Assembly: GCA_026414565.1 (NCBI GenBank)
Contig: JAOAIT010000038.1
Span: 1 to 64,000 of the forward strand
Length of the DNA stretch: 64,000 bases
DNA from: Verrucomicrobiia bacterium
GTDB lineage: Bacteria > Verrucomicrobiota > Verrucomicrobiia > Limisphaerales > Fontisphaeraceae
Reading direction: 5' to 3'
Shown here: positions 40,406-51,161 of the stretch, one piece after another
Numbering within the stretch: position 1 is the stretch's first letter
Layout: each line of letters begins with the position of its first letter
Translations under genes and position numbers: made by a program
The notes under the pieces: generated by a model
The model's input: only the letters and a program-made list of their open reading frames with translations
What the model was told of the DNA's origin: nothing
Databases searched by the model: none

Positions 40406-40648
40406 GGTGCAAACATGCCAGTTTTAGCGGCGGTTGCAACTCCGCGCTGAGGGTTTTATCGGGCCGGGGTGCCACCAGTAACTTGGGCAAGTCCAGGCGT
40501 GGGGAGCGGGTGGCGGATTCGCACTCTGGGGGTATGGCGCGGGCAACGGTTGGGGCGGGGGAGGGCAGGGGTATTGTCTTATGGCACGACAATGCCAACA
40601 TCTGCCAGAAGTCTTGCGGCCCTGCTGTTCTTCAGGCATTCTCCGGAC

Positions 40649-42040
40649 ATGATAACCATCATCGCAGGCACCAATCGTCCCGGCAGCAACACCGCGCATG
40701 TGGCGCGCGCGGTCGAAGCGTGTTACCGCCGCCGCGGCGTTCCGGCGCAGGTCATGGATTTGGGGCTGCTACCGCCCGCCGCCTTTGCGCCCGGGGCTTA
40801 TGCCCAGAAGCCCGAAGCCCTGGCCCCGTTCACCGAGTCCATCCTGCAATCGGCGGGAGTGGTGGTGGTGACGCCCGAGTACAACGGCAGTTTTCCCGGT
40901 GTGCTCAAATACTTTATTGATCTGCTGAAGTTCCCGGAGAGTTTCCAGGCCCGGCCGGTGGCGTTTGTGGGATTGTCCAACGGTCAATGGGGCGCCTTGC
41001 GCGCGGTGGAGCACTTGCAACAGATCTTTGCCTATCGCAACGCCCATCTGCTGCCCGAGCGGGTGTTTCTGCCCGGCATCCGGGATTGTCTGGACGGCGC
41101 GGGCGATTTGAATCAGGAAGGGCTGGCGCAGCGCTTGGAGGCGCAGGCCGAGGCGTTTGTGCGGTTTATTCACAAACTTACGGGGGTGGACTTGACCGCC
41201 CCCGCCGGGCATGCGCGTCGTTATGTGCCGCATCTGGGCGTGTGCTCGTGGTCGCTGCAGCCGGAGACGCCGGAAATCCTGGTGGAGAAGCTGGAGGAGC
41301 TGGGCCTCAAACGCCTTCAACTTTGGCTGGATCCGTTGCGTGAAAAGCCCGCCGTGTGGGGCCGGGCGCCGGAGCTGCTGGCCCGGGCGGGGGTGACTGT
41401 GGTCAGCGGCATGTTTGGGTGTGTGGGAGAAGATTACAGCACGCTGGAAAGCATCCGGCGCACCGGGGGGGTGGTGCCGGATCACACGTGGGAGCAGAAC
41501 TGGGCCAACATCCAGGAAAACGCCCGTCTGGCGCAACGCCTGGGCCTCAAGTATGTGGCCTTTCACGCGGGCTTTCTGCCGCACGATGCCCAGGCGCCGG
41601 AGTTTGCCAAATTGGTGGAGCGGCTGCGGCGGATTGCCCAATTGTTTGGGGAGGCGGGCATCACGCTGGGGCTGGAGACCGGGCAGGAAAGCGCGGCCAC
41701 TTTGCGCGAATTTTTAGTGCATCTGGGCTGCCCGAATGTGGGAGTCAACTTTGATCCGGCCAACATGATTTTGTATGATCAGGGCAATCCGGTGTTTGCG
41801 CTGCGGCTGCTGGGGCCGTGGGTGAAGCAGTGTCATTTGAAGGACGCCACCCGCACGCGCCAGCCGGGCACGTGGGGCGAAGAGGTGCCGGTGGGCACGG
41901 GCCAGGTGAACTGGCGCGGCTTTTTCCAGACGCTGAGCGAGATCGGCTTCCACGGCAATTTGTGCATCGAGCGCGAGGCCGGCCAGCAGCGCGTGGCCGA
42001 CATTCTCGCGGCGCGCCGGTGGGTGGAAACGCTGCCGTAA
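40649..42040 (+). CDS. Fusion of NADPH-dependent FMN reductase and sugar-phosphate isomerase TIM barrel
   Basis: A protein of 463 residues. Residues 1-~180 are a flavodoxin-like NADPH-FMN reductase: ITIIAGTNRPGSNT (FMN phosphate loop) and VVVTPEYNGSFPGVLKYFID. Residues ~190-463 are an AP endonuclease-2/xylose isomerase-like TIM barrel: PHLGVCSWSLQPETPEILVE, LKYVAFHAGFLP, LGLETGQES, GVNFDPANMILYD (metal ligands) and LKDATR (metal). Each half is normally a separate protein. A cytoplasmic oxidation/isomerisation of a polyol or keto-sugar is plausible; the pairing may channel an intermediate. Next in line is a Gfo/Idh gene 31 bases later, consistent with sugar metabolism. Confidence 0.85.
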   Translation: MITIIAGTNRPGSNTAHVARAVEACYRRRGVPAQVMDLGLLPPAAFAPGAYAQKPEALAPFTESILQSAGVVVVTPEYNGSFPGVLKYFIDLLKFPESFQARPVAFVGLSNGQWGALRAVEHLQQIFAYRNAHLLPERVFLPGIRDCLDGAGDLNQEGLAQRLEAQAEAFVRFIHKLTGVDLTAPAGHARRYVPHLGVCSWSLQPETPEILVEKLEELGLKRLQLWLDPLREKPAVWGRAPELLARAGVTVVSGMFGCVGEDYSTLESIRRTGGVVPDHTWEQNWANIQENARLAQRLGLKYVAFHAGFLPHDAQAPEFAKLVERLRRIAQLFGEAGITLGLETGQESAATLREFLVHLGCPNVGVNFDPANMILYDQGNPVFALRLLGPWVKQCHLKDATRTRQPGTWGEEVPVGTGQVNWRGFFQTLSEIGFHGNLCIEREAGQQRVADILAARRWVETLP

Positions 42041-42071: not shown

Positions 42072-43109
42072 ATGAGCAAAACGGTTAATGTCGGAGTCAT
42101 CGGGCTGGGCTTCATGGGGGTGACGCATCTCAAAGCCATGCAAAAACTGCCGCAGGCGCGGGTGGTCGCCGTGTGCGACGCGGTGCGCCGGCCGGAGAAC
42201 GGGCAGATCAGTGCCGGGGGCAATGTGGGCGATGGCCGGCCGGTGACCCTGGACATGAACGTGGTGCGAGTGTACCAGGATTACCGCGAGCTGTTGCAGG
42301 ACCCGCAGGTGGAGATGGTGGACATCTGCCTGCCTACGCCGTTGCATCCCGAGGTGGCCCTGGCCGCGCTGGCGGCGGGCAAGCATGTGCTTTGTGAAAA
42401 ACCTATGGCCCGCACCAGCGCCCTGGCGCGGCAGATGGTCGAGGCGGCCCGCCAGGCGCAGGGTTATCTGATGCCCGCCATGTGCATGCGCTTTTGGCCG
42501 GGGTGGACCTGGCTCAAAAACGTGGTGGACAGCGGCCAATACGGGCGCGTGCTTGCCGCCCGCTTCCGCCGCGTGGCGGAGCCGCCCGCGTGGAGCAAAT
42601 CGCAGTTCATGGACGGCCAGAAATCGGGCGGAGCGCTGCTGGATTTGCACATTCACGATGTGGACTTTGTCCAGTATTGCTTTGGGCGGCCGCAATCCGT
42701 GTTTGCCACCGGCTACACCTGCCTGAGTGGCGCCATTGACCATGTGGTGGCGCAGTACCGCGTGGCCGGCGGGGCCATTGTCCACGCCGAGGGCGGGTGG
42801 GCCATGGCGCCGGGTTTTGGCTTCAGTATGAGTTACACCGTCAACTTCGAACGTGCCACGGCGGATTTTGACGTGGCCCGCGGTGAGGAGGCGCTCAAGG
42901 TGTTTGTGGAGGGCCAGCCGCCCCTGGTGGTCAGGAGCGAGGGACCTGATGGTTACGTGGGCGAGATTGCGCATTTCCTGGACAGCATCCTCGCCGGCCG
43001 GCCGCCCAGCGTGGTGACGGCCGCCGACGGGCTTAGCGCCATTGAAATTTGCGAGGCCGAGGAGGCCTCGATTGCCAGCGGTCAACCCCAGCCGCAGGCC
43101 GCGCGTTAA
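42072..43109 (+). CDS. Gfo/Idh/MocA-family oxidoreductase (cytoplasmic)
   Basis: A protein of 345 residues with no signal. The Rossmann start VNVGVIGLGFMGVTHLKAMQ, the ICLPTPLHPEVALAALAAGKH segment and CEKPMART (EKP) define the family; the middle has SGGALLDLHIHDVDFVQYCFG with the conserved His/Asp. NAD(P)-dependent dehydrogenase or reductase of a sugar or inositol-like substrate. It follows the reductase/TIM-barrel fusion and is likely cotranscribed. Its TAA shares bases with the stop of the Ehr-complex gene on the other strand. Confidence 0.92.
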   Translation: MSKTVNVGVIGLGFMGVTHLKAMQKLPQARVVAVCDAVRRPENGQISAGGNVGDGRPVTLDMNVVRVYQDYRELLQDPQVEMVDICLPTPLHPEVALAALAAGKHVLCEKPMARTSALARQMVEAARQAQGYLMPAMCMRFWPGWTWLKNVVDSGQYGRVLAARFRRVAEPPAWSKSQFMDGQKSGGALLDLHIHDVDFVQYCFGRPQSVFATGYTCLSGAIDHVVAQYRVAGGAIVHAEGGWAMAPGFGFSMSYTVNFERATADFDVARGEEALKVFVEGQPPLVVRSEGPDGYVGEIAHFLDSILAGRPPSVVTAADGLSAIEICEAEEASIASGQPQPQAAR

Positions 43110-43882
43110 GTGGGCGTGGCCGGCTTGGGCAGCCGTCCCAGGAGACGCAGGAGTCCGTCCAGAATCGTCAGGGGATGCGGCGGGCAGCCGGGAATGAATA
43201 AATCCACCGGCACGACGGCGGCGGCGCCATTGCGCACCTGCGGCAGCTCCACAAAAGGCCCGCCGGCAATGGCGCAGGCGCCCACGGCAATCACCAGCCG
43301 CGGCGGGGGCACGGCCTCGTAAGTCTTGCGCAGGGGCAGCTCCATGTTGCGGGTCACCGGACCGGTGATGAGGAGTCCGTCGGCGTGGCGCGGGGAGGCC
43401 ACAAACTGGATGCCGAAGCGGCCGAGATCCCAGCCCACGGTGGTGAGCACATTGGTGTCGGCTTCGCAGGCGTTGCAGCCGCCGGCGCTGACCTGGCGCA
43501 GTTTGAGCGAACGCCCGAACAGGCGGCGGCATTCCTTGTCGAGCTGCCGGGCCAGGGCATATTCGTGGCCGGTGAACTGCAAATCTTCGCGCCGGCGGAC
43601 GGCCAGGCGGTGTTCGGAGGTGAATCGGATGGCTTGCGCGGGGCAGCTTTGCTCGCACAGCGGGCAAAACAGGCAGCGGCCCAGGTCCAGCGCCAGCCCC
43701 TGCGGTGTGTGGCGGATGGCCTGCGTGGGGCAGAGCTCTTCGCAAATCTGGCAGCCCGGCGGGCAGCGGGTGGGGTCCAACTGCGGGCGTCCGCGCAGGC
43801 GGTCGGGCAGGGGCGGCAGCTCCCGCGGATAGGGCAGGGTGCGGTGTCCTTGATGCCAGCGCGCGGCCAGAACTCTTAGCAT
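43106..43882 (-). CDS. Ehr-like complex: ferredoxin-type plus small (NuoB/HycG-like) subunit
   Basis: A protein of 258 residues. Residues 35-90 hold two 4Fe-4S motifs: C40, C44, C47, C51 and C70, C73, C76, C80 (NuoI-like). Residues ~125-245 are the small subunit with cluster N2-type ligands C136, C139 (GGCNACE), C203 and C232 (PGCPP). It therefore joins the electron-transfer and small subunits in one chain. The subunits would pass electrons to the large subunit at the cytoplasmic membrane surface. The ATG at 43882 has AGGAGG upstream. Last gene of the operon. Confidence 0.9.
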   Translation of the reverse strand: MLRVLAARWHQGHRTLPYPRELPPLPDRLRGRPQLDPTRCPPGCQICEELCPTQAIRHTPQGLALDLGRCLFCPLCEQSCPAQAIRFTSEHRLAVRRREDLQFTGHEYALARQLDKECRRLFGRSLKLRQVSAGGCNACEADTNVLTTVGWDLGRFGIQFVASPRHADGLLITGPVTRNMELPLRKTYEAVPPPRLVIAVGACAIAGGPFVELPQVRNGAAAVVPVDLFIPGCPPHPLTILDGLLRLLGRLPKPATPT

Positions 43883-43892
43883 GGGGGCCTCC

Positions 43893-45401
43893 TTACAAAT
43901 CGTGTCCGCAATAGGACAGGTTGAAACTTTTGTTGCAGAGCGGGAAATCCGAGATTTGCTGTTCCCGCAGGGCCATGGCCAGGCCAAACCAGTTGTGGAA
44001 CGAGGGGTCCACGATTTTGTAGTGGGCCAGCCTGCCTGCGGCATCGGTCATGGCCACGTGGCAGATTTCGCCGCGCCAGCCCTCGACCAGTGCGACGGCC
44101 ACTTGCTGAGGGGCCAACGGGGGAAGGGGGACATGGATGGGGCCGGGGGGCAGGGTGTGGAGCAGATCGCGCAGGAACGCCGCCGAGCGCTGCATTTCCA
44201 GCCAGCGCACAAAAGCGCGGGCATACACGTTGCCGGTGGCAAAGGTGGAAACGGGGATTTGCTGAAAGCAGTATCTGCCCCAGGGCAGGTCCCGGCGCAC
44301 ATCCTGCTCCACGCCGCAGGCGCGGACGGCCGGCCCCACCAGCCCCAGAGCCACGGCGGTCTGGCGCGACAGCGCCCCCGCATTTTCAAAACGGGCGCGC
44401 ACGGAAGAAGTGTTCCACAACAGATCCACGGCGTTGGCCGCATCCTCCATGGCCTGGGCCAGAACTTTTTCCAGCGCCTGCAGGCGGTCGGCCCCGGCAT
44501 CGAAGCGCACCCCGCCGGGGAGCAACAGGCCGCGGCCAAAGCGGTTGCCACAGAGCAGGGCGGTCAGGTTGAGAAAGTCGCCCCGAATGCGGCCGCAGTA
44601 GGCGGCGGTGGGCAGAAAGCCCACGTCGCCGGCCAGCGCGCCCAGATCGCCGGTGTGATTGGCCAGGCGCTCCAGCTCGAGTGCCAGGGCGCGCAGAGCC
44701 TGCGCCCGGGGCGGTGCGGGCGTCTGGCTCAGGGATTCGAGGACCTGGCAATAAGCCGTGGCATGGCCGATGGTGGTGTCCCCGGCCACAGTTTCCATCA
44801 TGGCGAGCGTGCGGCGATTGGGGCCGCCGCGCAACGCGGGTTCCACCCCCCGATGCTGGTAGCCGAGAGATATTTCCAAGTGCATCACGCGCTCCCCATG
44901 GCATTGGAAACGAAAATGGCCCGGTTCAATGATGCCCGCGTGGACCGGGCCAACCGCCACTTCATGCACCTCCTCTCCCTCCACGCGAAAGTAATCCGTG
45001 ACCCCCGGCTCCGGCGCCGGGGGCGTGCCGGCCGCCGGCCGCCAGGCGGGATGGAACCGAATGGGCTTCAGCCAGGGGTGGCCTTCAGGATGCACGCCCC
45101 ATTGTTCCGCCATCTCGCGCTCAAACCAGTGCGCCTGGGGACAATCAGGGGTGAGGGCGGGGTACTTTTCCCCCACGGGTGCGGAACCCAGCAGCTCCAG
45201 GCGGCCTTCCTGATCGTGCGCCAACACCGCCATCAACCGCAGCGCCTCCGCCTCGCCGGGCAGACCGAAGAGCGCGGCGAGGCGGGCGCCGCCGGCCACC
45301 GCCTCGCAAATGCGTTGGCGAAACTCGGTAACTGTGGCCTCCGGAATTGCTGCCGCCGCCACGATGCCACCGTTGGCGATCCTGCAACCAGGTGTTTTCA
45401 T
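43893..45401 (-). CDS. Ehr-like complex: NuoC/D-type large subunit without Ni ligands
   Basis: A 502-residue HycE/HyfG-like fused subunit: an N-terminal NuoC-like part (~20-130, HWFEREMAEQWGVHPEGHPW) and a NuoD/large-subunit part (~135-502, VGPVHAGIIEPGHFRF, YQHRGVEPAL). In real [NiFe] enzymes the RxCGxC motif sits after HRGxE; here that site reads METVAGDTTIGH (202-213). The C-terminal DPCxxC site reads DPSFHNW (465-471). All four Ni-ligand cysteines are absent. The last residues, ISDFPLCNKSFNLSYCGHDL, are typical of hydrogenase-related complexes. It is probably not an H2 enzyme. AGGAGG precedes ATG 45401, in the operon. Confidence 0.9.
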   Translation of the reverse strand: MKTPGCRIANGGIVAAAAIPEATVTEFRQRICEAVAGGARLAALFGLPGEAEALRLMAVLAHDQEGRLELLGSAPVGEKYPALTPDCPQAHWFEREMAEQWGVHPEGHPWLKPIRFHPAWRPAAGTPPAPEPGVTDYFRVEGEEVHEVAVGPVHAGIIEPGHFRFQCHGERVMHLEISLGYQHRGVEPALRGGPNRRTLAMMETVAGDTTIGHATAYCQVLESLSQTPAPPRAQALRALALELERLANHTGDLGALAGDVGFLPTAAYCGRIRGDFLNLTALLCGNRFGRGLLLPGGVRFDAGADRLQALEKVLAQAMEDAANAVDLLWNTSSVRARFENAGALSRQTAVALGLVGPAVRACGVEQDVRRDLPWGRYCFQQIPVSTFATGNVYARAFVRWLEMQRSAAFLRDLLHTLPPGPIHVPLPPLAPQQVAVALVEGWRGEICHVAMTDAAGRLAHYKIVDPSFHNWFGLAMALREQQISDFPLCNKSFNLSYCGHDL

Positions 45402-45402
45402 G

Positions 45403-46890
45403 TCAAAATCCTCCTGCCGCGCGCGCGGCTTCACGCACCAGCGCCGCCAGCGGGCCTGGCAGATACAGGCCCAGGACGGCGGCCAGGCATATTAACACCA
45501 GAGGAGGCATGGCCATCCAGGTCCGTCTTTCCACGGCCTGCTCGGGACCATGCGCAGGACAGGTGGACGGACCCTGGCCCATTTCCAAAAACGCCGAGGC
45601 CATGCCCATGAAGGCCACCGCCAGGGCGGCGAGGGCGGCCACGGCCACCCACAAATGACCCCGTTCCACCGCCCCGCGGAGCAGGAGCCATTCGCTAAAA
45701 AAGGAGCCAAAAGGCGGCGCCCCGGTGATGGCGAGGAATCCTGCCAGCCACAAACCGCCGGGCAGGGGCAGCGCCCGCAAGACCCCGCGCACCCGGCTGA
45801 TGTCCTTGGAGTGATAGGCATCCAAAATCAGGCCGGCGGTGAGAAACAGGCCGGCTTTGGCGAGCGAATGAAAAATGGCATGCAACAGGGCGGCCATGGC
45901 CCCCACGCCCCCCACGCCCACCCCCAGCGCCAGCAAGCCCATGTGCTCGATGCTCGAATAAGCCAGCAGGCGCTTGTAGTCCTTCTGGCCGAGGATGAAC
46001 ACCGCCGCCACCCCCAGCGAGCTCAAGCCCAGGAGGAGCAGCAAGTGTTGTCCAAATTCGGCCAACCCCGCCGCCTGGCAAACCTCCTGCAACCGCCAGA
46101 GCCCCAGGAAGGCGCAGTTCAACAAGGCGCCGGACAACAACGCCGACACCACCGACGGGGCCTCACTATGGGCATCCGGCAACCAGGTATGGAGGGGGGC
46201 CAGGCCCATCTTGGCGCCGTAACCCACCAGCATCAAAATGAAGGCTGCCTTCAGCCATTGCGGTTGCAGCTCTGCGCCGTGCTGGACCAGGTTTTCCACG
46301 ACCAGGGCCAGGGGTTTGCCGCTGGCGGTTGAGATGGTGGCCACGCCGAGGAAAAACGTGCCCAGCAAGGCCAGCGCAATGCCCACCGAGCAGATCAACA
46401 AATACTTCCAGGTGGCCTCCAGCGAGCGCCGGTTGCGGTGATAATAAATGAGCGGGGCACTGGCCAGGGTGGTGGCCTCGATGGCCACCCACAACAACCC
46501 AAAGTGATGGCTGAGGGCCACCAGGGTCATGGCGGCCAGAAACAGCAACTGGCAGCCGATAAACACGGATTCAGGCGCCGGGCTGAGCAGCTCGGGCTCG
46601 CCGGTTTCGCGGGGGGCGGGCGCGGCGTGCTGCTGATTCAGGTAACCCACCCCATACACTGCTGCCGCCAGGAACAGCACGCTGGTGAGGCTCAGGAACA
46701 ACAGCCCGGCCGCATCCACCGCCAGCCAGCCATCCAGCCCGGGCGGGGGTCGTTGAATCCAGCAAAGGGCCGTCAATCCCGCATGACCGGCGGCGGCCGT
46801 CACCCACAAGCCGCGGCGCACGCCGGCATGGCGGAGGAAAAAGGCCGCCAGTCCGGCCACCGCAGGCAGCAGAAGCAGAGAGGTCATCAT
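45403..46890 (-). CDS. Ehr-like complex: antiporter-like membrane subunit (HyfF/NuoN-like)
   Basis: A protein of 495 residues with about 14 membrane helices of the Complex I/Mrp antiporter family. Proton-path residues are kept: Glu in VAIEATTLAS, Lys in LVGYGAKMGLAPLHTWLPDA, and a Lys in FHSLAKAGLFL. Also QKDYKRLLAYSSIEHMGLLA. Predicted to move protons (or Na+) across the inner membrane during electron transfer. Ends one base before the start of the large subunit gene. Confidence 0.9.
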   Translation of the reverse strand: MMTSLLLLPAVAGLAAFFLRHAGVRRGLWVTAAAGHAGLTALCWIQRPPPGLDGWLAVDAAGLLFLSLTSVLFLAAAVYGVGYLNQQHAAPAPRETGEPELLSPAPESVFIGCQLLFLAAMTLVALSHHFGLLWVAIEATTLASAPLIYYHRNRRSLEATWKYLLICSVGIALALLGTFFLGVATISTASGKPLALVVENLVQHGAELQPQWLKAAFILMLVGYGAKMGLAPLHTWLPDAHSEAPSVVSALLSGALLNCAFLGLWRLQEVCQAAGLAEFGQHLLLLLGLSSLGVAAVFILGQKDYKRLLAYSSIEHMGLLALGVGVGGVGAMAALLHAIFHSLAKAGLFLTAGLILDAYHSKDISRVRGVLRALPLPGGLWLAGFLAITGAPPFGSFFSEWLLLRGAVERGHLWVAVAALAALAVAFMGMASAFLEMGQGPSTCPAHGPEQAVERRTWMAMPPLVLICLAAVLGLYLPGPLAALVREAARAAGGF

Positions 46891-46895
46891 AATTA

Positions 46896-47534
46896 TTAAT
46901 CCCTCAAATGGGAGAGGCGGTCGGTATCCATGTGGTCAAACTCCCGGCTGATGTGAAAGACCATGATGCCCATGAGAAAGACCGCCACAAAAACATCCAG
47001 CAACACCCCCATTTCAATGAGCAGCGACAGCTCGCCCATGACGCCCGCGCCGAAGGTGAAGATGCCGTTTTCCAGCACAATAAACCCCAGCACCTGATTT
47101 ACGGCCCGTTTGCGGGCAATGATGAGAAACAGCCCGCACCACATGCCCAGCATGGCCACCGGGGCCAGAAAACGCGAAGCCAGCGGCGCGGGCAGGGGCA
47201 GATGGCTGGCGATCCAGAAGGAGGCCCCCAGCGCCAGCACGCCAAACAACAGACTCAAACCGTAGCCCACATACGGCTCCACCTCCCGGCTGACCTCCGC
47301 CTCGCGCAAAGTGCGGAAGAGCAACCGGGGAAAGACATAGCCCTTGAGCAGGGCGCTGCCCAGGGCCAGGGCCACGCCCCGCATCCCCGGCGTCTCGCCC
47401 CCCGCCAGCAAGGGCAGTAGCGAGAGAAGAATGCCCTGGAGGGCGGTGGTGCGAATACAGGCCCCGAGCCGGCTGGAGGCCAGTAGGCGCAGATGGGTCA
47501 ATAAAACCAGGATTAAAAGGAAATCAATCAACAT
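46896..47534 (-). CDS. Ehr-like complex: HyfE-like membrane subunit
   Basis: A protein of 212 residues with about six hydrophobic helices (LIDFLLILVLLTHLRLLASS at the start; NQVLGFIVLENGIFTFGAG in the second half with the conserved Glu). It matches hydrogenase-4 component E, which contains a NuoK-like part. The gene ends 5 bases before the next start. Confidence 0.85.
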   Translation of the reverse strand: MLIDFLLILVLLTHLRLLASSRLGACIRTTALQGILLSLLPLLAGGETPGMRGVALALGSALLKGYVFPRLLFRTLREAEVSREVEPYVGYGLSLLFGVLALGASFWIASHLPLPAPLASRFLAPVAMLGMWCGLFLIIARKRAVNQVLGFIVLENGIFTFGAGVMGELSLLIEMGVLLDVFVAVFLMGIMVFHISREFDHMDTDRLSHLRD

Positions 47535-47543
47535 AAACCGGGA

Positions 47544-48455
47544 TCAGGGTTGAGAAGCGGCCAGCAGCAGGGCCACCGCCGCCAGCACGGTGGCGCCCCA
47601 CAAAAACTGCGGCACCGTGAGCAAACGCAGGCGGGCCATGGTGGATTCCACCACCCCCACCCCCATGCCGATGACCATCACGGCCGCCGTGCCGGTGAGC
47701 AGGGTCAGCCACGGGGAGCCCGCCTGCAACGGCAGCGCCACCGAGGCCACCAGCGCGGCAAACAACCAGAGCTTCAGCGCCGCCGCATATTGAATCAGGG
47801 CGAAATCCGGCCCCCCGTGGTCCAGCACCATGACCTCATGGATCATGGTCAGCTCCAGATGCGTATTGGGATCATCCACCGGAATGCGCGCGTTTTCCGC
47901 CAGCAACACCAGAAACAGGGCCGCCACCACCAGAATCAGCGATGGCCCGGAAGCAAGCCAGTGTCCTGCATTCAGCCGGCCCAACATGCCGCTGAGGGAA
48001 TTGTCGCCTACCATCAGCACCAGCGTGCCCAGCCCCAGCAACAGGGCCGGCTCGGCCAATGCCGAGAACTGCACCTCGCGGCTGGCGCCCATGCCCTCAA
48101 AGCTGGAGCCGGTATCCAGCGCCGCCAGCACGATGAACAAGCGGGCCAGGCCCAGCAGATAGGCCATCACCACGAAATCCCCGGCAAACGACAGCGGGGC
48201 CGGCAGGTGGAGCAAAGGCAGCAACATCAGGGCGGCCACGGTGCACACCAGCGCGACGACTGGCCCGGCGCGAAACACCCAGGAAGTGGTGCGGCTGTAC
48301 ACCGCTCCTTTGCGCAACAGCTTCCCCAGATCATAATACAATTGCAGCAGGGGCGGCCCCTGGCGTCCGGCAAAAAAGGCCTTGGTACGATGGATCACCC
48401 CCAGCAGCAGGGGGGCGAGCAACAGGCCCAGCAAAGGTGGGACAAACGCGATCAT
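47544..48455 (-). CDS. Ehr-like complex: NuoH/HyfC-like membrane subunit
   Basis: A 303-residue NuoH-like protein with about eight helices. Key acidic residues of the quinone/proton pathway are kept: REVQFSALAEPALLLGLG, DDPNTHLELTMIHEVMVLDH. Its first helix and RTKAFFAGRQGPPLLQLYYD match the family start. It is the connection between the soluble arm and the membrane arm. Confidence 0.9.
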   Translation of the reverse strand: MIAFVPPLLGLLLAPLLLGVIHRTKAFFAGRQGPPLLQLYYDLGKLLRKGAVYSRTTSWVFRAGPVVALVCTVAALMLLPLLHLPAPLSFAGDFVVMAYLLGLARLFIVLAALDTGSSFEGMGASREVQFSALAEPALLLGLGTLVLMVGDNSLSGMLGRLNAGHWLASGPSLILVVAALFLVLLAENARIPVDDPNTHLELTMIHEVMVLDHGGPDFALIQYAAALKLWLFAALVASVALPLQAGSPWLTLLTGTAAVMVIGMGVGVVESTMARLRLLTVPQFLWGATVLAAVALLLAASQP

Positions 48456-48459
48456 GGCA

Positions 48460-50457
48460 TTATCTCAAGGCAAACAACAACAAGGCCAGCAGGGTGAGCG
48501 CCAGGTACAGCACATAGAGATGCACATTGCCATGCTGCAACCAGCGGAGCCGCCCCAGAGTCTCCCGGAGCCGGCCAAACAACGGTTGATAAAGCTCGCG
48601 CTGGCTGGTGTCCGGGGTGTCGGTGGCCAGGGAGGCATGCCGCGGGAAAAAGCCCTCCGGCGGCCGGCCCTGGGTTTGCGGCCGCAAGAGCGCCTGAAAC
48701 TGCAGGGTGAGCGGCTGCACAAACGAGGAGGCGGTGTATTGCATCCGGGCCGTGGGCTGCGCGTAGCCGCAATCCCAGGTCACCGCCCGGCTCACCGGCC
48801 GCGCCCGCAGCCAGACCCGGCGCAGGAGTGCCACCAGGGCCACGAGGATGATGAGGCCGCCGCCCAGGGCGCTCAGCCGCCAAAGCAGTGCCTGCTGGCG
48901 TGCCAGCACCGCCAACAGCCGCTCGTTGCCGGAAATTCCAGGAACCGGGCAAAGCGCGGTGATCAGGGGCGTCAAGATCTTCCACCCCAGCGGAGCCAGC
49001 AGGGCGACCAGCCCGCATGCCGCCGCCAGGAGCAGCAGCCCGCTGCGCATGGCCGGCCCGGATTCATGTGCATGAAGGGCGGCCGTACTGCGCGGCTCGC
49101 CCAGAAAGGCCACGCCCACCGCCTTCGTGAAACAGACCAGGGCCAGGCCGCCCATCAAAGCCAGTCCGGCCAGCGTCAGGGCGCCGGCCAGCGCCGCCCT
49201 GCCATGCGCGCTGTTCAGCCCGTCCACCGCGCCCAGGTACAATAAAAACTCGCTTAGAAAACCGTTCAGGGGCGGCAGGCCGACGATGGCGATGGCCCCC
49301 ACCAGGAAGCATGCGGCGGTCCAGGGCATGCGCCGGAGCAGTCCGCCCAGTTGCTCCAGGTTGCGGGTGCCGGCGCCGTGCAGCACACTGCCGGCGCCCA
49401 AAAAGAGCAAACTCTTGAACAACGCATGATTGAGGACATGCAGCAGTGCTCCGGCCCAACCGGCCACGGCCAGCGCCGGCAATTTCCAGGCGACTCCCAG
49501 CAGTCCCAGGCCCGCGCCCAGCGTAATAATGCCCATGTTTTCCACGCTCGAATAGGCCAGCAGGCGTTTGAGGTCTTTTTGGGCCAGCGCCAGCAAAATG
49601 CCAAAGACGCCGGAAACCAATCCCACCGTAAAGAACAGCCAGCCCCACCATTCCGGCCAGTTTGCGAAAAAACTCAGGCTGCGCAACAGCCCGTAGATGC
49701 CGGTTTTGATCATCACGCCCGACATCAGCGCCGAAATATGACTGGGCGCTGCCGGATGAGCCTCCGGCAGCCAGACATGCAGGGGCATGAAACCGGCTTT
49801 GACGCCAAAGCCCAGGATCGCCAGCAAAAACCAGGCACCCAGGGCATGGCCGTCCACCGGTTGCGCCGCCCAAGCGGCAAAATCCATGGAACCCGCCAAG
49901 TGGCCCCGCCAGAGAAAGAACGTCAGCAGAAAAGCCGCCCCCAAATGGGAGGCGACCAGGTAAATCCAGCCGGCCCGGCGATGGGCGGGTGATTCATCCT
50001 CGTAGGTGACCAGGAAAAATGAAGCCACCGTCATGATCTCCCATGCCGCCAGAAACAGCACGGCATCCCGCGCCACCACCACCAGGGCCATGCCGCCCAC
50101 CAACAGGTTGGAGAAAAACCAGCCTGCGGCCGGCGAGCGCCGGCCTTGTGCGGGTTGCCCATAGCCTGCGCCATAAAGCGCGGTGACGGCCGCCAGCCAC
50201 GCAATCACCAGCAGAAACCAGGCTGTAAGGGGGTCCACAGCCACATGAAACTGACCAGCCGCCGACGGCCACTGCAGGCGCCAGCTCGTGACCTCCGCGG
50301 AGAGCAAGGCGTCCAGGGCGGCGGCACCCGCAAAGAGGGCGCCGCCCATTTGAGCGGCCATCCCCATGAGGATGGCCAAGCGGGGATGTCGGCGCACCAG
50401 CAGGGGCAGCAAACCGCCGAAAAACCAAAAGCTCAGGGCCAATCCCATCTTGTTCAT
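48460..50457 (-). CDS. Ehr-like complex: HyfB-like (NuoL/M) membrane subunit
   Basis: A 665-residue NuoL/NuoM-like antiporter subunit with about 16 helices. It has AAWEIMTVASFFLVTYEDES (Glu), LGFGVKAGFMPLHVWLPEAH (Lys), KTGIYGLLRSL, and QKDLKRLLAYSSVENMG. Predicted H+ pump subunit. Its ATG (50457) overlaps the stop of the PTS-like regulator gene (50454-50456). Confidence 0.9.
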   Translation of the reverse strand: MNKMGLALSFWFFGGLLPLLVRRHPRLAILMGMAAQMGGALFAGAAALDALLSAEVTSWRLQWPSAAGQFHVAVDPLTAWFLLVIAWLAAVTALYGAGYGQPAQGRRSPAAGWFFSNLLVGGMALVVVARDAVLFLAAWEIMTVASFFLVTYEDESPAHRRAGWIYLVASHLGAAFLLTFFLWRGHLAGSMDFAAWAAQPVDGHALGAWFLLAILGFGVKAGFMPLHVWLPEAHPAAPSHISALMSGVMIKTGIYGLLRSLSFFANWPEWWGWLFFTVGLVSGVFGILLALAQKDLKRLLAYSSVENMGIITLGAGLGLLGVAWKLPALAVAGWAGALLHVLNHALFKSLLFLGAGSVLHGAGTRNLEQLGGLLRRMPWTAACFLVGAIAIVGLPPLNGFLSEFLLYLGAVDGLNSAHGRAALAGALTLAGLALMGGLALVCFTKAVGVAFLGEPRSTAALHAHESGPAMRSGLLLLAAACGLVALLAPLGWKILTPLITALCPVPGISGNERLLAVLARQQALLWRLSALGGGLIILVALVALLRRVWLRARPVSRAVTWDCGYAQPTARMQYTASSFVQPLTLQFQALLRPQTQGRPPEGFFPRHASLATDTPDTSQRELYQPLFGRLRETLGRLRWLQHGNVHLYVLYLALTLLALLLFALR

Positions 50458-51161
50458 AATTTCTTGGCGGGGGGGGTGTTTCGTGCGGCGGCCAGCCCGG
50501 CCTCTGTGGCGGCCACGGCGGCCAGCAGATCCTGCTCACCGGCCCGCGCGCTCAGCAATGCTTTAAGGCGGGCATCGCGCAGGCCATAGGCCAGGCGTGC
50601 CAGCAAATGCAAATGCACCTTGACCGTGGGCGAAATCAGGAGGAACAACGCAAACACCGGCTGCCCGTCCAGGGCGCCGAAGTCCACCGGCTGGCGGAGA
50701 AAGCACAGGCTCACCAGGGGCCTGGCAAGGTCCAGCACGATGGGATGGCGGGGATGAGGAATGGCCACGCCTTCGCCCACGGCGGTGGACTCCAGCGATT
50801 CCCGCGCCCAGAGCAGCGCCCACAGCCAGTCGCGGTTGATGCTGGGGGGCAGCCGCAACCGGTTGACCACCGCACGCAGCACGGATTGCTTGTCTGCCCC
50901 CTCCACGCCGTAATGCACTCCACCTGCGGTCAACGCCTCAGCCAGCGTGGGCAGGGGCGAGGCATCGTTCTCCGCTGCAGCGAGAAACTGCGGGGAAAGC
51001 GGAAGCCGCTGCATGGCCGCCCATTCCAGCACCTCCTCGCGGCTGAAGCGCAACCAGGAGCCGTCGCGGAACGCCGGCAGTTGGCGTTCCTTGACCCAGC
51101 GATGGATGGTCTTCTCCGAGACATCAAAAGCGCGAGCCACATCTTGAACGGTCCATTGCAT
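50454..51161 (-). CDS. DNA-binding protein with PTS EIIA(Ntr)-like domain, first gene of the Ehr operon
   Basis: A protein of 235 residues. Residues 1-60 are a MerR/excisionase-type helix-turn-helix (WTVQDVARAFDVSEKTIHRW, then WLRFSREEVLEWAA). Residues ~70-215 are a PTS EIIA-like domain of the fructose/PtsN type, with VAIPHPRH (His136, the usual phosphorylated His) and HLHLLARLAYGL. It overlaps the HyfB-like gene by 4 bases, so it is translated with the complex. Likely a sensor of phosphotransfer state that regulates the operon; there is no PTS enzyme I or HPr in the window. Its own SD is weak. Confidence 0.85.
   Translation of the reverse strand: MQWTVQDVARAFDVSEKTIHRWVKERQLPAFRDGSWLRFSREEVLEWAAMQRLPLSPQFLAAAENDASPLPTLAEALTAGGVHYGVEGADKQSVLRAVVNRLRLPPSINRDWLWALLWARESLESTAVGEGVAIPHPRHPIVLDLARPLVSLCFLRQPVDFGALDGQPVFALFLLISPTVKVHLHLLARLAYGLRDARLKALLSARAGEQDLLAAVAATEAGLAAARNTPPAKKL

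Follow-up and report, generated by a model that had tools for sequence, protein, structure and literature searches.

An Ehr complex lacking all four nickel ligands, with a helix-turn-helix–EIIA protein at the head of its operon

The seven-gene operon at positions 51161-43106 (minus strand) of the window, by which we mean the whole stretch of 64,000 nucleotides analyzed, likely encodes a ferredoxin-linked, ion-pumping Ehr complex that is not a hydrogenase. Its substrate would be small, and neither H2 nor, in general, a quinone, and its expression is probably under the control of the PTS phosphorelay. By origin the complex goes back to an enzyme that made hydrogen, whose nickel site it no longer has. 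Named examples of Ehr complexes are Geobacter GSU0739-0745 and those of Nitrospira and Margulisbacteria. The family is known but its function is not (PMC12342949, PMC10284858, PMC7304191).

The operon is tightly packed, with intergenic gaps that lie between -4 and +10 bp (in gene order, 5′ to 3′, -4, 4, 9, 5, 1 and 10 bp). All seven genes (Table 1) are intact and have strong family matches, including the six subunits of the hydrogenase-4/formate hydrogenlyase family that had been predicted originally. With HyfH and HyfI joined in one protein, the six structural genes account for seven subunits of hydrogenase-4. The antiporter-like, NuoH-like, HyfE-like, EhrL and EhrS subunits by which an Ehr complex is recognized are thus all encoded in one operon. 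The first gene was expected to encode an HTH-EIIA protein and to overlap the first subunit gene; it does so, by 4 bp. The genes flanking the operon lie on the opposite strand, and its 3′ end overlaps a convergent Gfo/Idh-like gene by 4 bp. A search with the sigma-70 consensus found no promoter-like site for the operon, a result that says little beyond that consensus. Elsewhere in the window, at 40469-42040, an open reading frame seems by eye to join an NADPH-FMN reductase-like part to a sugar isomerase/epimerase-like part. Residues of EhrL are numbered throughout from an in-frame GTG at 45434 (513 aa), which lies upstream of the ATG at 45401 (502 aa); the latter is preceded by a good ribosome site.

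Table 1. Genes of the operon and former nickel motifs of EhrL, with positions in the window.
Feature	Position	Strand	Length and evidence
HTH-EIIA	50454..51161	-	235 aa; PF12728 + PF00359; phospho-His H136
HyfB/HycC-like antiporter subunit, EhrA type	48460..50457	-	665 aa; PF00361; HycC E=1.2e-65
NuoH/HyfC/HycD-like membrane anchor	47544..48455	-	303 aa; PF00146; HycD E=2.2e-31
HyfE-like (NuoK-related) subunit	46896..47534	-	212 aa; NF008556 (hydrogenase 4 membrane subunit) E=3.3e-19
HyfF-like antiporter subunit	45403..46890	-	495 aa; PF00361; hydrogenase 4 subunit F models
EhrL, fused NuoC+NuoD-like large subunit	43893..45401	-	502 aa; PF00329 + PF00346
EhrS, fused HyfH-like 2x[4Fe-4S] ferredoxin + HyfI/NuoB-like	43106..43882	-	258 aa; PF01058 + Fer4; MbhJ E=2.7e-33
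First former Ni motif METVAGDTTIGH, EhrL residues 213-224	44763..44798	-	alignment to HycE
EhrL C-terminus FPLCNKSFNLSYCGHDL, residues 497-513, second former Ni motif	43896..43946	-	alignment

EhrL is matched best by HycE of the E. coli formate hydrogenlyase, in sequence as well as in fold. The AlphaFold model of EhrL (pLDDT 89) superimposes on HycE with a TM score of 0.85, followed by NuoCD of complex I. On alignment to HycE (residue numbers corrected for the tag), the nickel ligands C241, C244, C531 and C534 fall on A217, T220, S507 and G510 of EhrL, so that all four are gone. The last of these was placed by continuing the alignment, and the hydrogenases of the window's genome align likewise. 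Thus neither of the two CxxC motifs that bind Ni-Fe in group 4 [NiFe] hydrogenases is present. The first site reads A217-G218-D219-T220 in place of C241-G-I-C244 of HycE, and is [AS]GD[TS] in most relatives. This is the sequence METVAGDTTIGH that was originally proposed to stand where nickel cysteines are required, and the alignment agrees. The proposed second site, DPSFHNW, was wrongly placed. It occupies residues 476-482, opposite ATYANW in HycE and APSFVNL in complex I. This is another motif, shared with complex I, and it is rejected as a nickel site; the true second site aligns at NLSYCGHDL (S507/G510) near the C-terminus. The absence of a nickel site survives this correction. A check for nickel cysteines elsewhere, the C-terminal cysteine included, found that C509 directly precedes the position of the former second ligand and that neither site has a CxxC motif. 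EhrL stops right after the second motif and has no cleavable tail.

The proton gate of HycE, E193, is kept in EhrL as E170, and the canopy arginine R478 as R454. Other relay residues of HycE are also kept (H284 as H260, E437 as E413 and R395 as R371), while the canopy aspartate D529 is altered to N505; the roles of the HycE residues are taken from PMC9474812. In the membrane arm, the HyfB-like subunit has E140, K220, K251, H340, H344, K348 and E403, and the HyfF-like subunit E138, K227, N258, H337, H341, K345 and E400. The lysine and glutamate residues of the proton path had been described as intact; those of the membrane arm are present, except that one lysine is N258 in the HyfF-like subunit. 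EhrS has the cysteines of two ferredoxin clusters (C40, C44, C47, C51, C70, C73, C76 and C80) and of the proximal cluster (C136, C139, C203 and C233). Across 69 aligned sequences the proximal cysteines are 99% conserved; these and C51, C70, C73 and C76 each exceed 90%, and C40, C44, C47 and C80 are conserved at 80-87%. The first three proximal ligands had been identified correctly, but the fourth is C233 rather than C232, and the subunit that carries them is the small one, not the large. The branch to which the window's EhrL belongs (the window branch) has the ferredoxin domain fused to EhrS; in many Ehr complexes outside it, EhrS lacks that domain.

Where does this complex stand within the family? 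In a maximum-likelihood tree of 54 rows, Ehr forms a clade of 50 rows (support 100/100) that is separate from the hydrogenases and NuoD, and a quick tree of 162 rows recovers an Ehr clade of 158 rows with support of 100. The clade takes in sequences of Nitrospira moscoviensis and Geobacter sp. Phylogeny, gene content and the loss of all four nickel ligands together back the original assignment to Ehr. The window branch lies inside Ehr with support of 100/100 and a long stem (1.51) in the 54-row tree, and comprises 73 rows with support of 100 in the quick tree. Ehr sequences with four cysteines diverge first in the careful 54-row tree, where all cysteine-less Ehr form one clade (100/97), but are grouped with Nitrospirota rows in the quick one. 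Since the two trees place them differently, a single loss of the nickel site is favoured but unproven. The window branch is found in at least four phyla, although most of the loci come from metagenome-assembled genomes. In the quick tree, rows of the same class as the window's genome cluster with named Verrucomicrobia records, which fits Verrucomicrobiota as its phylum. Homologues of EhrL (E<=1e-40, some being true hydrogenases) occur in 88 of 289 sampled genomes of the window's phylum; the other sampled sets gave, at the cut-offs applied to them, 63 of 297 for a phylum that contains Geobacter, 44 of 145 for a set of Omnitrophota and 26 of 199 for one of Planctomycetota. A collection scan added relatives in Nitrospira, Acidobacteria, Rokubacteria, Bacillota, Burkholderia, CPR and archaea.

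Two further features of the family were seen. A set of large subunits that is basal in the careful tree (L099, L107, L126, L128, L131, L133 and L152 from Bacillota, and L114 from Planctomycetota) has CYxC, in one case SYAC, at the C-terminal nickel site, and most of them have CGxC at the first; they may be true hydrogenases or intermediates. Ehr large subunits or operons also stand in adjacent pairs, in L054, L055, L056 and L219; in L054, L056 and L219 the window branch supplies one of the pair and a different Ehr branch the other.

The HTH-EIIA protein consists of an excisionase/MerR-type helix-turn-helix and a PTS EIIA-2 domain that is PtsN-like, its closest solved relatives being PtsN. The phosphohistidine H136 is invariant in 51 sequences. 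Among loci with at least 6.3 kb of upstream sequence, chosen by likeness to EhrL and not by HTH-EIIA, the gene is present in 42 of 64 of the window branch and absent from 22. Of 63 loci of other Ehr, 3 have it, and one of these (in Geobacter) merely adjoins an operon of the branch. A genome-wide search of 55 genomes found 44 close homologues (E<=1e-42), 37 of them within ~10 kb of EhrL by hand count; the other seven are not within this range, and some of these lie at contig ends. These linkage counts ignore relatedness among loci. When checked as originally proposed, the gene thus proves to be conserved alongside Ehr operons, namely those of the window branch, across several phyla. The Geobacter sp. 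genome that was compared (L147/L219) has an Ehr of this branch together with HTH-EIIA, so the window's operon is an ordinary member of its kind. The window's genome has a gene for enzyme I, a partner for the phosphorelay, and four for EIIA-2, but no EIIC was found in it; the PTS of this genome therefore looks regulatory. From the gene linkage and the conserved phosphohistidine, we infer that HTH-EIIA probably controls the operon through the PTS phosphorelay.

HTH-EIIA genes also occur in other settings. In L051, L052 and L053, members of the window branch, a second and divergent HTH-EIIA-like gene with the motif APVGGGFALPHP or similar lies by the antiporter-subunit genes, and in L051 and L053 it stands between the two. 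The window's genome has a second HTH-EIIA gene (G000:C53:199526-200191) at ~10 kb from a group 4 hydrogenase with intact nickel motifs, the two being in separate operons. In L125 and L136, both Nitrospirota, HTH-EIIA heads the operon of an Ehr complex that does not belong to the window branch, which suggests transfer or an older association.

What, then, might the complex act upon? No catalytic partner recurs beside the Ehr loci apart from HTH-EIIA, most of the neighbourhood clusters being shadow frames of Ehr genes. With no partner enzyme or substrate gene recurring by the operon, gene context lends no support to any substrate. Ehr is raised on formate in proteomics of G. sulfurreducens, for which a link to formate dehydrogenase was suggested (PMC7894505), and such a link was also proposed for Margulisbacteria (PMC6349859); the window's operon encodes no formate dehydrogenase. 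The fold, the canopy arginine and the proton relay that EhrL shares with complex I would fit a ferredoxin:quinone oxidoreductase in which the former nickel pocket now binds quinone as in complex I. UbiA and MqnA/D are encoded in the window's genome, which probably makes menaquinone, so that a quinone could still serve in this organism. Yet the quinone-site residues H38 and Y87 of Nqo4 are replaced by I169 and G218 in EhrL. Moreover, a set of 60 genomes, each 90% complete or better and with a relative of EhrL, includes 14 without UbiA; in 13 of these 14 MqnA/D are missing as well, which makes quinone unlikely as a general substrate. The C-terminal motif of the branch was read directly in seven genomes that lack UbiA (L055, L061, L064, L066, L067, L077 and L078), although that of L064 has MqnA/D. 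Taken as a whole, we consider the quinone reading unlikely.

The cysteines C500 and C509, gained next to the lost nickel site, could make up a dithiol with redox activity, handing on two electrons to a disulfide substrate or to a thioredoxin-like protein. Both are present in 67 of 72 scorable members of the window branch (FPLCNKSFNLSYCG), while among 85 other Ehr C509 is never found and C500 occurs in 24. They adjoin the old nickel ligands, and so by alignment should be near the proximal cluster. Five branch members have only one of the cysteines or neither, however, so the pair is not obligatory, and an obligatory pair is ruled out; the dithiol itself we regard as distinctly doubtful. Less probable still is a direct reduction of sulfane sulfur, or of some other S–S bond, by the proximal [4Fe-4S] cluster, as happens in the Pyrococcus sulfane sulfur reductase MBS, a group 4 relative with partly lost nickel ligands (PMC7684303). 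MBS needs an open Fe, which its proximal cluster has because the cysteine loop is shortened, whereas the CxxC + C + C set of EhrS is complete and of hydrogenase length. An open cluster with three cysteines is therefore rejected for EhrS. It could finally be supposed that the complex is still a hydrogenase, with D219, S507, C509 and C500 as non-canonical ligands. The basal Ehr group does retain all four cysteines, as is reported for EhrL of D. ruminis (PMC3569383), but the window branch keeps no ligand at its position and has no protease-cleaved tail after the motif. Furthermore, the window's genome has two other group 4 large subunits (L069 and L070) with both CxxC pairs intact. We judge a hydrogenase to be extremely improbable.

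For the reading that we prefer, a ferredoxin-linked pump acting on another small substrate, the following sequence of events can be envisaged. Electrons probably come from reduced ferredoxin and enter EhrS at its fused ferredoxin domain, from which three [4Fe-4S] clusters would pass them to the pocket of EhrL that is the seat of Ni-Fe in hydrogenases. Devoid of Ni-Fe, this pocket would reduce or oxidize a small substrate with the help of the retained relay of E170, R454, H260, E413 and R371. The redox step would in turn drive H+ or Na+ through the two antiporter-like subunits. HTH-EIIA at the head of the operon would probably sense the state of the PTS phosphorelay and set expression accordingly. 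More speculatively, and with a small chance of being correct, one branch of Ehr may have lost the nickel site and then used C500, C509 and D219 to build another site in the same pocket, for redox chemistry or for a metal, giving a ferredoxin-driven pump with a substrate novel for relatives of complex I and a dedicated phosphorelay switch.

Ehr complexes occur widely, and the window branch is now singled out for study, with quinone argued against as its general substrate. Deletion of HTH-EIIA, or the signal that it receives, could show when the complex is used, and C500, C509 and D219 in the former nickel pocket are marked as residues for mutation.

Comparison with known systems places these features in context. 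HTH-EIIA shares its EIIA-2 domain and the phosphohistidine motif AIPH with PtsN (EIIA-Ntr), but has the N-terminal helix-turn-helix fusion and sits in an Ehr operon; no relevant literature tying EIIA or PtsN to group 4 complexes was found. Neither the HTH-EIIA partner nor the C500/C509 pair is mentioned in the published accounts searched, which were open-access, and a regulator travelling with one branch of this known family seems to be undescribed. Like MBS, the complex is related to group 4, has lost nickel ligands and has an ion-pumping arm; it differs in having lost all four ligands, in its fully ligated proximal cluster and in the lack of an Mrp module in the operon. Among solved structures, the HyfB-like and NuoH-like subunits are closest to hydrogenase-4/formate hydrogenlyase (Hyf/Hyc; 7z0s), and Hyf/Hyc also gives the top model match for the HyfE-like and HyfF-like subunits. 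In contrast to these enzymes the window's complex has no Ni-Fe ligands, no C-terminal extension and no formate dehydrogenase in the operon, and its HyfH and HyfI are fused. With the known Ehr complex it shares the subunit set, the loss of nickel ligands and the position in the tree, differing in that it has a single EhrA-type gene where some relatives have two.
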